Shown here: piece after piece, positions 8,340 to 27,082 of the stretch
Layout of the letters: each line of letters begins with the position of its first letter
How positions within the stretch are numbered: position 1 is the first letter of the stretch
Source: Aeropyrum sp.
Lineage (GTDB): Archaea > Thermoproteota > Thermoprotei_A > Sulfolobales > Acidilobaceae
Length of the DNA: 64,000 bases
Direction of reading: 5' to 3'
Assembly: GCA_015521685.1 (NCBI GenBank)
Contig: WANT01000030.1
Coordinates: 1-64,000 of the forward strand
Position numbers and translations under genes: made by a program
The notes under the pieces: model-generated
Told to the model about the DNA's origin: nothing
What the model saw: only the letters and a program-made list of their open reading frames with translations
Database searches by the model: none

Positions 8340-8762
8340 CTACTGGCTTCTGGCGCACTTCACGCTTGCTAGCATGAGTCTCATCATGGCGGCCATCTCG
8401 GGGCTTGTCATAGCCCTCATGAGGTCCCTTATTCCCATGCCTTTCTCAGTTTTGGCGGCCTCCTCGAGGGCCTTGTTCATGCACACTGGCATCTTCTCAG
8501 CAGCCTTCACTAGGAGGGACTGGTCTATCTGGGAGAGCATGTATCCTAGCATCATCATGTTCCCCACCATCTTCATAACCTCGGGTCTCGCCATGGCGTT
8601 AAAGATCTCATCGCCCATCTCAGCAAGCTGTAGCATGAAGTCTAGGAGCCCCGACTTCTTCATAGCGGCCAGCAGCTCTATAGCGGTTGATATAGCCTCG
8701 TAGTTCTCCTCCAGGAGCTCCACGAGCTTTATGATCTTCTCCTCCTGATGATGATGCTCCAC
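8340..8762 (-). CDS. DUF1641 protein, partner of SQR-like flavoprotein
   Basis: 140 residues, helical and methionine-rich, starting with a His-His-His stretch. The pattern of leucine- and alanine-rich helices with a late MAAMMRLMLASVKCARS matches DUF1641 proteins, which are regularly encoded beside sulfide:quinone-oxidoreductase-like or formate-dehydrogenase-like redox enzymes. Here it lies 15 bases behind the SQR-like gene. No membrane helix is convincing. Role probably accessory to the oxidoreductase; not experimentally defined as far as I know. Confidence 0.8.
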   Translation of the reverse strand: MEHHHQEEKIIKLVELLEENYEAISTAIELLAAMKKSGLLDFMLQLAEMGDEIFNAMARPEVMKMVGNMMMLGYMLSQIDQSLLVKAAEKMPVCMNKALEEAAKTEKGMGIRDLMRAMTSPEMAAMMRLMLASVKCARSQ

Positions 8763-8777
8763 ACCACACCACCCCCT

Positions 8778-9923
8778 CTATGCAAACCACTTCTCGAGCC
8801 AATATCTCTCGAACGCATACTTCAAGGGCCTGAAGGCCCTCATACCGCCCAGGATAACGCAGTCCGGGTACTTCGACTCCCCCTTTACTTTGCCTGAGAA
8901 GTCGCAGTAGACCGCTGCGCCCACATAACCCAGGTCCATAACGCAAACACCGCTCATGTTGTAGTGCTCCCCCATGTAGGTGCCGAGGACCTCGTCGGCG
9001 ATCTGTGCGGCGACGAACTCGGCTTGGAAGTGGGCGAATATCCCAGCCATACCTAGGCCTAGGGATGGGGCTACTATGTCGCCCACGCCAAAGACGTTAT
9101 CGTACTTCGGGCTTCTGAGGGTTCTCCAGTCGACCCTCATGTAGCCCCATATAGACTCGTCGGCTAGAGGCGACTCTGCGACGGCCTTAGGCGGGGTATG
9201 GGGAGGAGCGAAGACTGCCAGATCATACTCTATTGCCTCGCCGCTCTCGGCAACGAGCCTCCCAGACTTGGCCTCCGCAGGCTTGAATCCCCCTCTAAAG
9301 CCGACTCCGTACATGTCGAGGAACTTCTTGAAGCTCTCCACCATGTACGGCCCGAAGGGCTCCATAGGCTCGCTCCAGAAGTGGGTTACTGTGACCTCAG
9401 GCTCCCCAGCCCTCTGCTCCACTACATACTTGAGTAGGAAGGCCGTCTCGAATGGTGCCGGCGGGCACTTGTAAGGCCAGTCCCATGCTCCCACAACTAT
9501 CTTTCCCTTCTTGAAGCCGGCAAGCTTCCTCCTACAGTCTAGAGCGCCTTCCACAGTCCAGGGACTACACACCGTCTCGTCTGCGTTCATCAAATCGGGT
9601 CTGGGCGCGCTCCCGAGCGCCACGATCAGATAATCATAGTCGAGCCGCCCAGCAGAAGTGCCCACATAACTATTATCGGGGTCTATCTCCTCAACGCTTG
9701 CCTCCACAACCTTGATGCCATGCTTCGATAGCCTTGATAGGGGCCTCATAATATCCTCGGGCTCCCTCTGGCCCACCATAACCCAGAGGAGGCTCGGGGG
9801 GAAGAGGTGGTAGCCAGTCTTGTCGACAAGCGTTATCTCCGCCTTGTCTTTAAGGAGCTTAGCTAGGTTGTGTGCGGCTACGAGCCCCCCGGGCCCTCCG
9901 CCCAGGACGAGTATTTTCGTCAA
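8778..9923 (-). CDS. Sulfide:quinone oxidoreductase-like FAD protein
   Basis: FAD-dependent pyridine-nucleotide-disulfide-like oxidoreductase, about 381 residues. N-terminal dinucleotide fold ILVLGGGPGG; YDYLIVALGS near 100; GVGDIVAP near 285 (FAD ribityl site). Cysteines near residue 118 (VCSP), 163 (YKCPPAPFE) and 325-340 correspond in placement to the redox-active cysteines of archaeal SQR and flavocytochrome c sulfide dehydrogenase, so electron transfer from sulfide to quinone at the membrane face is the likely role. A TATA box at 9941-9952 places transcription start near 9921, favouring the TTG at 9923 (leaderless) over the GTG at 9932. Confidence 0.85.
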   Translation of the reverse strand: MTKILVLGGGPGGLVAAHNLAKLLKDKAEITLVDKTGYHLFPPSLLWVMVGQREPEDIMRPLSRLSKHGIKVVEASVEEIDPDNSYVGTSAGRLDYDYLIVALGSAPRPDLMNADETVCSPWTVEGALDCRRKLAGFKKGKIVVGAWDWPYKCPPAPFETAFLLKYVVEQRAGEPEVTVTHFWSEPMEPFGPYMVESFKKFLDMYGVGFRGGFKPAEAKSGRLVAESGEAIEYDLAVFAPPHTPPKAVAESPLADESIWGYMRVDWRTLRSPKYDNVFGVGDIVAPSLGLGMAGIFAHFQAEFVAAQIADEVLGTYMGEHYNMSGVCVMDLGYVGAAVYCDFSGKVKGESKYPDCVILGGMRAFRPLKYAFERYWLEKWFA

Positions 9924-9940
9924 ATTGACCACGCTCCACT

Positions 9941-24990: not shown

Positions 24991-25092
24991 AAGATAAAAT
25001 ATTTTGAATATTTCAAACATAAAGTTTTCCATTTAGTAGAGTACAGCAAAATAAATATATATTATCATATTAAAATAATTACTGGTGGAAAC
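24991..25092 (+). promoter_or_regulatory. AT-rich promoter region of the His-rich membrane operon
   Basis: About 100 bases of strongly AT-rich DNA in a GC-rich genome. It holds a perfect inverted repeat AAATATT-TTG-AATATTT (24997-25013) and several overlapping TATA-like stretches at 25049-25081. GGTGG at 25084-25088 serves as SD for ATG 25093. The 24814-25092 interval (279 bases) contains this element and the nested repeats but no gene I can support. Confidence 0.55.
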
Positions 25093-25695
25093 ATGGTATT
25101 AAGCGAGCTGGGTTTAGTAGTTGCTGGCCTAGCTCTGGCAGGGAGCGGGCTTCTAGTCGTGCGCAGGAGGATAGAGCCTGCTACAGTACTCTGGAGTTTG
25201 GGTGGCTTGGTATTTGCCGCTGTATCCATACTGCTGGCAGTACTCGGGACTAAGCTACTGGAAATAAATGTGTCCAGCCTGGTGGGCAGCCTGTACCCAG
25301 CCTTCCTGGCTTTAGGGGTGATTGCTGCCCATACCAAGTGGTGGAAGCCCCTAGGACTAGTCTACCTAATACTCCTGGCGGGTATAGCCATAGGCATCTT
25401 CACCAATTTAGAAGTCTTGAAAGGAGCCTCACACGGAATTCTGCACGGCAGTGCTGGCCTCATCCTCGTATTACTACCAGCATACTATTACTATAGGCTT
25501 GGAATCTCCCGCTGGAGCCTGGCAGTATCCCTAGGTGGATTGACTATATCAGTGGGTGGCATCGTCCTAGCCCTGGCATCTGCAGGAGTTCCATGGGCGG
25601 CAGAGATAGTAGCGTCAGCACTCTACCCAGTCCTCGTAATCTCAGCTCTCCTCCTAGCGGCTGGATACATAGGAAGCGAGGGCTTCAAGAGGTGA
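25093..25695 (+). CDS. Unrecognised 6-TM membrane protein, partner of His-rich 12-TM protein
   Basis: About 200 residues with six hydrophobic helices (roughly 5-22, 30-52, 60-78, 85-105, 115-137, 145-165 and a last one to 195). The start of the fourth or fifth helix carries closely spaced histidines (ASHGILHGSAG), resembling the paired-His helix starts in the protein encoded immediately downstream. ATG 25093 has GGTGG at proper spacing; the frame is open further upstream, but that AT-rich stretch is promoter. Only four bases separate it from the next gene. No family recognised; a subunit of a membrane redox complex is my inference. Confidence 0.65.
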   Translation: MVLSELGLVVAGLALAGSGLLVVRRRIEPATVLWSLGGLVFAAVSILLAVLGTKLLEINVSSLVGSLYPAFLALGVIAAHTKWWKPLGLVYLILLAGIAIGIFTNLEVLKGASHGILHGSAGLILVLLPAYYYYRLGISRWSLAVSLGGLTISVGGIVLALASAGVPWAAEIVASALYPVLVISALLLAAGYIGSEGFKR

Positions 25696-25699
25696 CTGC

Positions 25700-27082
25700 A
25701 TGGTGGAAGGGGAGCGCCGCACATTTTTGATTCACGGCTTTGCAGCACTAACCATAACCATTATTCTGCTAGGTTGGGGCTCCCTACTATCGCCACCACT
25801 GAAACCCGTCAGAGAAGCCTTAGGTCTAGGGGAGCTGGAGGGCACTAGACTGGTTGATGGAAAGTTCGAGTTAATAAATCCTTCACTGGAAGAGGGCTTT
25901 GAGTATCTTGGCCGGGTATCCCACTACTATCACGCTCTATTCATTGTACTCCTCTATGGTACGATGGCGCTACTAGCACTTGCCTATCCTCGAGCATCTA
26001 AAAACTGGAGCGCCGTCCTGCTGGTAATCGGGATAGGAACGGTTATGACGATTGCGGGGGCTATACTGTACGCCTACATAAGTCACGAGCCTCAATGGCA
26101 TGGGCTCTTCATTGGCGGCCTGGCCGTAGTCTTCGCCGGGGGCGTCCTAGGCCTAGTATATTCTAGGCCTTCGAAACCACTAGAGTGGGCGGCGGTAACA
26201 TGCGGCGCTATACTACTGATTGGGGGGTTGATAGGAGGCTATGTCGGGGCCCACTATATGTCTCCGACGGAGTCATACGAATTCAGGAAGGCTCTAGTGG
26301 ACTCGCGCTTCGATCCAGATCTGGCCGAGGAGAACGAGTTGTGGAGGGCCTGGACGGGCCACCAGCACGCGATGATAGCAACCTCGCTAGCGCTAGCTTT
26401 CACAGCCCTAGCAGGGTTTATGGAGTTTAGGGAGGGGAGGCTTAGCAGAGCATTCCAGTGGCTTATAGCTCCTTCGACGGCAATCATGTCTCTAGCCAGC
26501 TATTCGGTGTGGTTTGTTGGGGGCGCTGCACACCTTATAATAACGCCCTCGGCCCTCCTACTCATAACATCAACTACGGCGCTATCACTGGTTGCCAAAG
26601 GAGGTAGCCTCCTGACAGTTAGGGGGGCGGTGGTATGGGCATCGAGGATAGGCAACGCCTTTGTCTGGCTATTCGTAGCCGCTCCAGGAGCGATGACGGC
26701 TATGAGCCTGAGGAAGCCCACCATATTCTTCGACCCCGCGTTCAGAGACCCCCTTTGGGACTGGGCTGAGCTAGCGTTCAACATAGGCCACTGGCACTAC
26801 CTACTCTTGGGGTGGGGCGCTATACTACTAGTGGGAGCCGCCGCAATAGCGGGGGGAAGGCTAGGCGTTACAGCAGTGTGGCTACTACTACTCGGTATGC
26901 TGGGTAGTGGTGTTGGCTATGTGCTTTATTTCATGACAGCAGAGCCCAAACCTTACTCTCTGAACCCCTATGACAATATCTGGGTGAAAGCATTGATAGA
27001 GCCTGGGCTAGCGGCGGTAGCGGCTTCAGTAGCCTTAACTTACTACAGCTTGCTGAAGAGGGGTCTGAGGGGTACTCTCTAG
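25700..27082 (+). CDS. Unrecognised 12-TM membrane protein with paired histidines (possible haem protein)
   Basis: 460 residues with about twelve membrane helices. Even-numbered helices begin with histidines on the same membrane face: SHYYHALFI (helix 2), HEPQWHGLFIGG (helix 4), TGHQHAMIA (helix 6), GAAHLII (helix 8) and GHWHYLLLGWG (helix 10), plus GAHYMSP at the end of helix 5. The helix-10 H-x-H resembles that of haem-copper oxidases, and the overall size fits, but the His-His pair expected on helix 7 is absent. NnrS-like or oxidase-derived haem/metal binding is an inference. Cotranscribed with the 25093 gene. Confidence 0.7.
   Translation: MVEGERRTFLIHGFAALTITIILLGWGSLLSPPLKPVREALGLGELEGTRLVDGKFELINPSLEEGFEYLGRVSHYYHALFIVLLYGTMALLALAYPRASKNWSAVLLVIGIGTVMTIAGAILYAYISHEPQWHGLFIGGLAVVFAGGVLGLVYSRPSKPLEWAAVTCGAILLIGGLIGGYVGAHYMSPTESYEFRKALVDSRFDPDLAEENELWRAWTGHQHAMIATSLALAFTALAGFMEFREGRLSRAFQWLIAPSTAIMSLASYSVWFVGGAAHLIITPSALLLITSTTALSLVAKGGSLLTVRGAVVWASRIGNAFVWLFVAAPGAMTAMSLRKPTIFFDPAFRDPLWDWAELAFNIGHWHYLLLGWGAILLVGAAAIAGGRLGVTAVWLLLLGMLGSGVGYVLYFMTAEPKPYSLNPYDNIWVKALIEPGLAAVAASVALTYYSLLKRGLRGTL

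Follow-up and report, generated by a model that had tools for sequence, protein, structure and literature searches.

A two-gene archaeal membrane system with a predicted haem-copper oxidase fold, seven invariant histidines and a probable link to nitrogen-oxide respiration

Introduction

The fold common to haem-copper oxidases and nitric oxide reductases (NORs) normally goes with a single reaction centre that has six histidine ligands. A pair of adjacent genes in an Aeropyrum genome raises the question of whether that fold has also been kept for a different purpose. The pair lies in the stretch of 64,000 nucleotides that was analysed (the window), and an initial annotation had described its products, of 460 and 200 residues, as a haem- or metal-binding membrane complex related to, yet distinct from, oxidases or NnrS. 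Here we ask what fold the large protein has, which of its histidines are conserved, in what company the genes are found, and what the complex might do.

Results

The gene pair and its genome

The small and large genes are transcribed in the same direction and are separated by 4 bases, with a likely ribosome-binding site ahead of the first (Table 1). The host genome (1.44 Mb in 68 contigs, 96.9% complete) contains the pair in single copy, and a close relative is found in another Aeropyrum sp. (L002) at 75% identity. The large protein belongs to no named family, as the initial annotation had supposed: neither protein matches a Pfam or NCBIfam family over the cut-off, and a literature search, with most subscription papers outside its coverage, found no such family. 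Housekeeping genes surround the pair in the window, with neither nar nor nor adjoining it, and ARAGORN finds no tRNA anywhere in this stretch. Elsewhere in the window a leftwards gene encodes an FAD-dependent oxidoreductase (Pyr_redox_2, weak FCSD_central) that is similar to a sulfide dehydrogenase flavoprotein, and it is adjoined by a gene for a 140-residue protein that starts MEHHH.

Table 1. Coordinates of the gene pair, of codons of interest and of genes at related loci.
Sequence	Position	Strand	Feature	Remark
Window	8340-8762		140-aa protein	Adjoins 8781-9932
Window	8781-9932	-	FAD-dependent oxidoreductase	
Window	25084-25088	+	GGTGG, likely ribosome-binding site of small gene	Read from sequence
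Window	25093-25695	+	Small subunit gene, 200 aa, seven predicted membrane helices	ORF and prediction
Window	25444-25446	+	Codon of invariant H118, small subunit	
Window	25700-27082	+	Large subunit gene, 460 aa, 12 membrane helices	Predicted haem-copper oxidase subunit I fold
Window	25931-25933	+	Codon H78, helix 2	On low-spin haem ligand of A-type oxidases (alignment)
Window	26099-26101	+	Codon H134, helix 4	Invariant; outside the six canonical oxidase ligands
Window	26360-26368	+	Codons H221-Q-H223, helix 6	H221 on copper-B His, H223 on Glu of HPEVY
Window	26498-26521	+	SYSVWFVG, residues 267-274, helix 7	Aligned to SFVVWMH of A-type oxidases
Window	26531-26533	+	Codon H278, helix 8 start in model	Invariant; oxidase counterpart varies by alignment
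Window	26789-26797	+	Codons H364-W-H366, helix 10	On oxidase HFH (high-spin and low-spin haem ligands)
L034	1540-3174		d1-haem protein	
L034	3734-4858	opposite	NnrS-like	Under Pfam cut-off
L034	5206-7371		norB	
L034	7449-7913		HTH-like protein	~150-aa CxxC-type family
L034	8456-9034		Small gene	
L034	9031-10371		Large gene	
L034	11418-15371		narG	Two opposite-strand ORFs between large gene and narG
L034	15368-16786		narH	
L028	11304-12977		Eight-CxxCH cytochrome	
L070	1321-2565		NnrS-like	Under Pfam cut-off
L082	10596-11057		~150-aa CxxC-type protein	
L083	8904-9365		~150-aa CxxC-type protein	
L108	10191-10640		~150-aa CxxC-type protein	
L118	4861-6636		d1-haem protein	
L119	6641-8431		d1-haem protein	
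L121	429-2051		d1-haem protein	
L121	2073-2525		~150-aa CxxC-type protein	
L121	3520-3975		~150-aa CxxC-type protein	

Seven histidines are invariant in the large protein

An AF2 model of the large protein made from 13 sequences (pLDDT 89, pTM 0.91) has 12 membrane helices, in agreement with the twelve or so first counted. Helices 1 to 6 comprise residues 3-29, 63-95, 103-127, 131-153, 160-187 and 213-238, and helices 7 to 12 residues 247-268, 270-297, 307-335, 351-384, 386-412 and 427-459. Conservation was read from an alignment of 18 homologues, with identity down to about 20%, taken from 18 of the 20 genomes that have the large gene (large-positive genomes); the broken copies in G334 and G489 were omitted from these rows, and both genomes are counted as large-positive. 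H134, H221, H223, H278, H364 and H366 are histidine in 18/18 rows, and H78 in 17/17, the remaining row being truncated at that residue. Histidine makes up seven of the 22 residues that are invariant in the 17 full rows, for which a naive hypergeometric P of 6e-8 ignores the general good conservation of this amino acid.

The pattern first noticed, of histidines at the starts of helices 2, 4, 6, 8 and 10, is thus retained in these seven but not in H75 (12/17 rows) or H129 (5/18). H12 is also variable (10/16), and the helix-5 GAH drops out of the pattern, with H185 kept in only 6/18 homologues. Positive-inside loop charges put the N-terminus inside in 17/17 full-length rows, so that the even helices run from outside to inside and carry their histidines at the outer end. 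By these counts the invariant histidines would lie near the outer face, in accord with the earlier claim that they share one side of the membrane.

The modelled fold is that of oxidase and NO-reductase subunit I

VIA-align comparison of the model gives Z 23.6 to a cbb3 oxidase (3mk7_G; 390 aligned residues, 3.7 A, 9% identity) and Z 22.9 to the cNOR 4xyd_A. Each of the 50 structural matches listed is an oxidase or NOR subunit I, and no NnrS structure is among them. Foldseek gives no match at E 0.001; its first-ranked structure is MurJ (TM 0.16), its second is the cNOR 3o0r_B (E 4.1e-3, TM 0.55), and oxidases or NORs alone occupy ranks 2 to 16. Sequence searches of solved structures return nothing for the family profile, and two unrelated weak matches for the single protein.

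On the strength of the model, the large protein is very probably related to the subunit I fold, sharing 12 helices over nearly the whole length with haem-copper oxidases such as cbb3 CcoN and A-type aa3. The structural comparison proposed with the initial annotation therefore leads to oxidases and NORs, and what that annotation had named as contrary to its reading, an unrelated transporter fold with non-conserved histidines, did not emerge. A transporter of metals or small molecules that has merely a 12-helix shape, with the histidines lining its transport path, would account for a polytopic protein of no named family. We consider it very improbable, given that every one of the 50 listed full-length matches is an oxidase or NOR chain, and that the histidines are in register with haem ligands and the genes have a denitrification context (both described below).

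Haem ligands are aligned but the helix-7 histidine pair is absent

Profiles for comparison were built from fetched loci and represent five archaeal A-type oxidases, seven B-type oxidases and six NOR sequences. Family alignment A3, which includes one frameshifted row (L035), scores 51.6 against the archaeal A-type oxidases and the 18-row family scores 41.3, with 0/100 block-shuffles as high in either case; the corresponding Prob values are 79 for A3 (the best), 23 for A2, 32 for A5 and 35 for the 18 rows. Against the mixed oxidase set none of 100 shuffles reaches A3, and two of 100 equal or exceed the 18-row family. In a control the NORs score 33.0 against A-type oxidases, so that by score the family is no further from the A-type oxidases than these NORs are. 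Scores of 17-22 against the NOR profile are at noise level (reversed control, 22), and among eight single-sequence oxidase or NOR templates one is clearly above four unrelated transporters.

H78, H221, H364 and H366 coincide with canonical ligand histidines of helices 2, 6 and 10 in each of the three A-type alignments, where S267 and W271 are also in register and SYSVW is placed on the SFVVW that directly precedes the oxidase His-His. GHWHY is aligned with the oxidase HFHY, which bears out the likeness to haem-copper oxidases first noted for helix 10. The His-His pair itself was said to be missing from helix 7, and it is: A3 has V273 on the first histidine and a gap on the second, and the 18 homologues have no invariant histidine on modelled helix 7. 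A5, one of the three A-type alignments, puts H278 on the first histidine, and H134 has no fixed oxidase counterpart across alignments. As judged from these sequence alignments, the low-spin haem ligands (H78 and H366), the proximal histidine of the second haem (H364) and the copper-B histidine H221 are kept, and H278 could at best make up for one member of the absent pair. Because this pair is lost, the protein should not be filed as a haem-copper oxidase or NOR.

The register is not the same in every comparison. A2 and A3 against the mixed set place H75, not H78, on the helix-2 low-spin haem ligand. The B-type template alignments, like that of A5 with the mixed set, are displaced by one fold repeat, such that family helix 6 pairs with oxidase helix 10 or helix 2; we take this displacement as a hint that helices 6 and 10 carry similar HxH motifs. 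An internal repeat of helices 3-6 and 7-10, which would pair H134 with H278 and H221xH223 with H364xH366, was considered and rejected, as shuffles matched it in 0/60 cases for A5 but in 13/100 for the 18-row family.

The Pfam COX1 model (PF00115) has no match to the large protein at E 10, and in its own genome matches only two other loci. With the fold matched and the His-His pair gone, and with further invariant histidines on helices 4, 6 and 8, the description as related to oxidases but distinct from them stands. NorB (cNOR and qNOR, and archaeal norB) has a like fold and shares gene clusters with the pair in Pyrobaculum-type genomes, but differs in its FeB histidine pair; a NorC-like domain finds no Pfam match.

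NnrS, which denitrifiers have as a haem-copper protein, is also polytopic. No sequence relation to it was detected: PF05940 has no match to the large protein at E 10 and none in its genome, and a comparison with an NnrS profile, consisting of two archaeal NnrS-like rows only, is at noise level. The archaeal NnrS-like proteins of L034 and L070 have few histidines (two in that of L034).

The small partner

The small protein is modelled by AF2 as a seven-helix bundle (pLDDT 92.8). In its SHGILH, singled out earlier as a histidine-bearing helix start, the second histidine (H118) is invariant in 9/9 aligned rows, and likewise in G051, read separately, but the first is not. Only generic seven-helix bundles (GPCRs and rhodopsins) are found as structural matches, and as the best Z of 12.8 is below the tool's meaningful level for helical bundles we claim no relation for this subunit. 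The small gene is directly upstream of the large one in 13 of the 20 large-positive genomes (12/19, plus G354), with a gap of -8 to +5 bases at the nine loci measured, and it is found in none of the 12 large-negative genomes tested. The large gene occurs without it in five genomes of family f8, in G042, and as a fragment in G489.

Distribution and broken copies

A 5-row profile has matches in 12/214 genomes of the order, and a 17-row profile in 15/398 genomes drawn from the phylum. The 20 large-positive genomes include 11 of the order, six of genus g89, which we take to be Pyrobaculum, and G293, G354 and G480; weak matches in G015 (52 profile positions) and G358 (81 positions, E 3e-4) were dropped from the counts. 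Large-negative genomes were hand-picked from the same or neighbouring genera. We further take f8 to be Pyrodictiaceae, and L034, L120 and L028 to come from P. aerophilum, P. calidifontis and a Pyrolobus, respectively.

Copies in the probable Pyrobaculum loci L035, L081, L082 and L083 are broken, through either decay or sequencing error. Both genes contain stops or frame breaks in G334 and frame breaks in G359, the large gene has a frame break in G489, and the small gene has a stop and a frame break in G324; the function can therefore be lost where narG and nor are kept. These broken Pyrobaculum-type copies, together with the lost canonical ligands, would suit a degenerate oxidase paralogue that has no redox chemistry of its own and either helps to assemble NOR or nitrate reductase or serves one of these enzymes as a structural subunit. 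This is improbable, however, for a protein in which seven histidines are invariant at about 20% identity, three of them additions and not remnants.

Genomic context

At L034 the genes are ordered d1-haem protein, NnrS-like, norB, HTH-like protein, small, large, narG and narH. Other loci present variations on this arrangement: norB, the small gene (broken), the large gene and narG are consecutive on one strand in L081, norB and the pair diverge in L082, and a broken large gene adjoins narG in L083. In L120 norB lies right beside narG, with the pair located in another part of the genome, and in L033 the pair and a molybdopterin oxidoreductase gene diverge. The solo large gene of L028 is followed 0.7 kb downstream, on the same strand, by a gene for a cytochrome with eight CxxCH motifs, and PF00115 has no match anywhere in that genome.

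A search with the L034 NarG finds homologues in 10/19 large-positive and 4/19 large-negative genomes (a 190-residue match in G156 is not counted), and within g89 in 5/6 and 0/5, respectively, the exception being G334 with its broken copies. The d1-haem protein (PF02239) is present in 7/20 large-positive and 0/16 large-negative genomes, with a Fisher P of 0.011 that ignores relatedness. The pair does not simply follow NOR, which is found in the large-negative genomes G001, G011, G014 and G037. The window's own genome has narG (in two contig-end pieces), narH and narJ, and no match to NOR or PF02239.

The four d1 proteins read (L034, L118, L119 and L121) have export-type or anchored N-termini and lack the CxxCH motif that textbook cd1 nitrite reductases have; they may act as nitrite reductases or be related to d1-biosynthesis proteins such as NirF. 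A family of about 150 residues with a CxxC-type motif is encoded beside the pair and beside nor/nir genes, gives weak C-terminal HTH matches in the three members scanned, and is possibly a denitrification regulator. A membrane NO reductase of P. delaneyi is reported to be more abundant on nitrate (PMC8105010), and the portion of that paper covered here contains no mention of the large gene. On balance, the pair probably acts in nitrogen-oxide respiration.

Discussion

There is good reason to expect that the complex binds at least two haems. The explanation that we favour, tentatively, is that the pair is a membrane haem protein of nitrogen-oxide respiration that passes quinol electrons outwards and lacks a canonical haem-copper centre. 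With the additional invariant histidines H134, H223 and H278 the fold would be able to accommodate two or three haems, for the most part with two histidine ligands apiece, in place of the canonical reaction centre. A protein with extra haems in that place would move electrons and itself reduce neither O2 nor NO. Electrons would be taken from menaquinol and delivered at the outer membrane face to exported nitrogen-oxide reductases; candidate acceptors are the d1-haem proteins (probable nitrite reductases without a c-haem motif) of Pyrobaculum-type and Aeropyrum-type genomes and, in the probable Pyrolobus genome, the neighbouring eight-CxxCH cytochrome. The seven-helix partner, with its one invariant histidine, may add a further haem site or a quinol site.

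The extra histidines, the loss of the binuclear centre and the exported, c-haem-free company of the genes are what lead us to prefer electron transfer over NO chemistry, a choice made with reserve. Several observations weigh against the explanation as a whole. These are the Foldseek result, the two shuffles that match the 18-row family with the mixed set, the noise-level NOR score and the two alignment sets shifted by one repeat, as well as the 13 of 20 large-positive genomes without a d1 protein, the seven without the small gene, the housekeeping surroundings of the window's pair and the broken copies where narG and nor persist.

The nearest rival is a complex that handles NO, by reducing it, dismutating it or protecting against it in the manner proposed for bacterial NnrS. 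The second haem would be five-coordinate and bind NO, and H221 and H278, perhaps with H223, would form a rebuilt metal site, which fits the single A-type alignment with H278 on a copper-B histidine better than electron transfer does. The oxidase/NOR fold with H364 and H221 kept points the same way, as do the proximity of the pair to norB in L034, L081 and L082 and to the NnrS-like gene in the L034 cluster, the presence in G009 of a large gene and a d1 protein with no NOR found, and the case of G167, in which the large protein is the sole oxidase-like one and the COX1 search finds nothing. We nevertheless think NO handling somewhat unlikely, in view of the lost helix-7 pair, the normal norB also present in 4/6 Pyrobaculum-type genomes with the large gene, and the want of any detected sequence relation to NnrS.

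A more specific form of the favoured explanation can be drawn, and we regard it as doubtful. Extra haem sites, one to each pore, would have taken the place of the haem-copper centre, making a conduit from quinol to the outside that feeds d1 nitrite reductases free of c-haem. H78 and H366 would provide one haem set and H134, H221, H223, H278 and H364 two more, with an eighth invariant histidine supplied by the partner, and the family would represent an archaeal branch, as yet unnamed, within the haem-copper oxidase fold.

If fold and haem ligands are preserved in a conserved branch that drops the copper-B site and adds invariant histidines elsewhere, this fold would be shown in another job. The pair is also a candidate for an unassigned step in archaeal nitrate respiration, the supply of electrons to exported d1-haem proteins that have no c-haem of their own.
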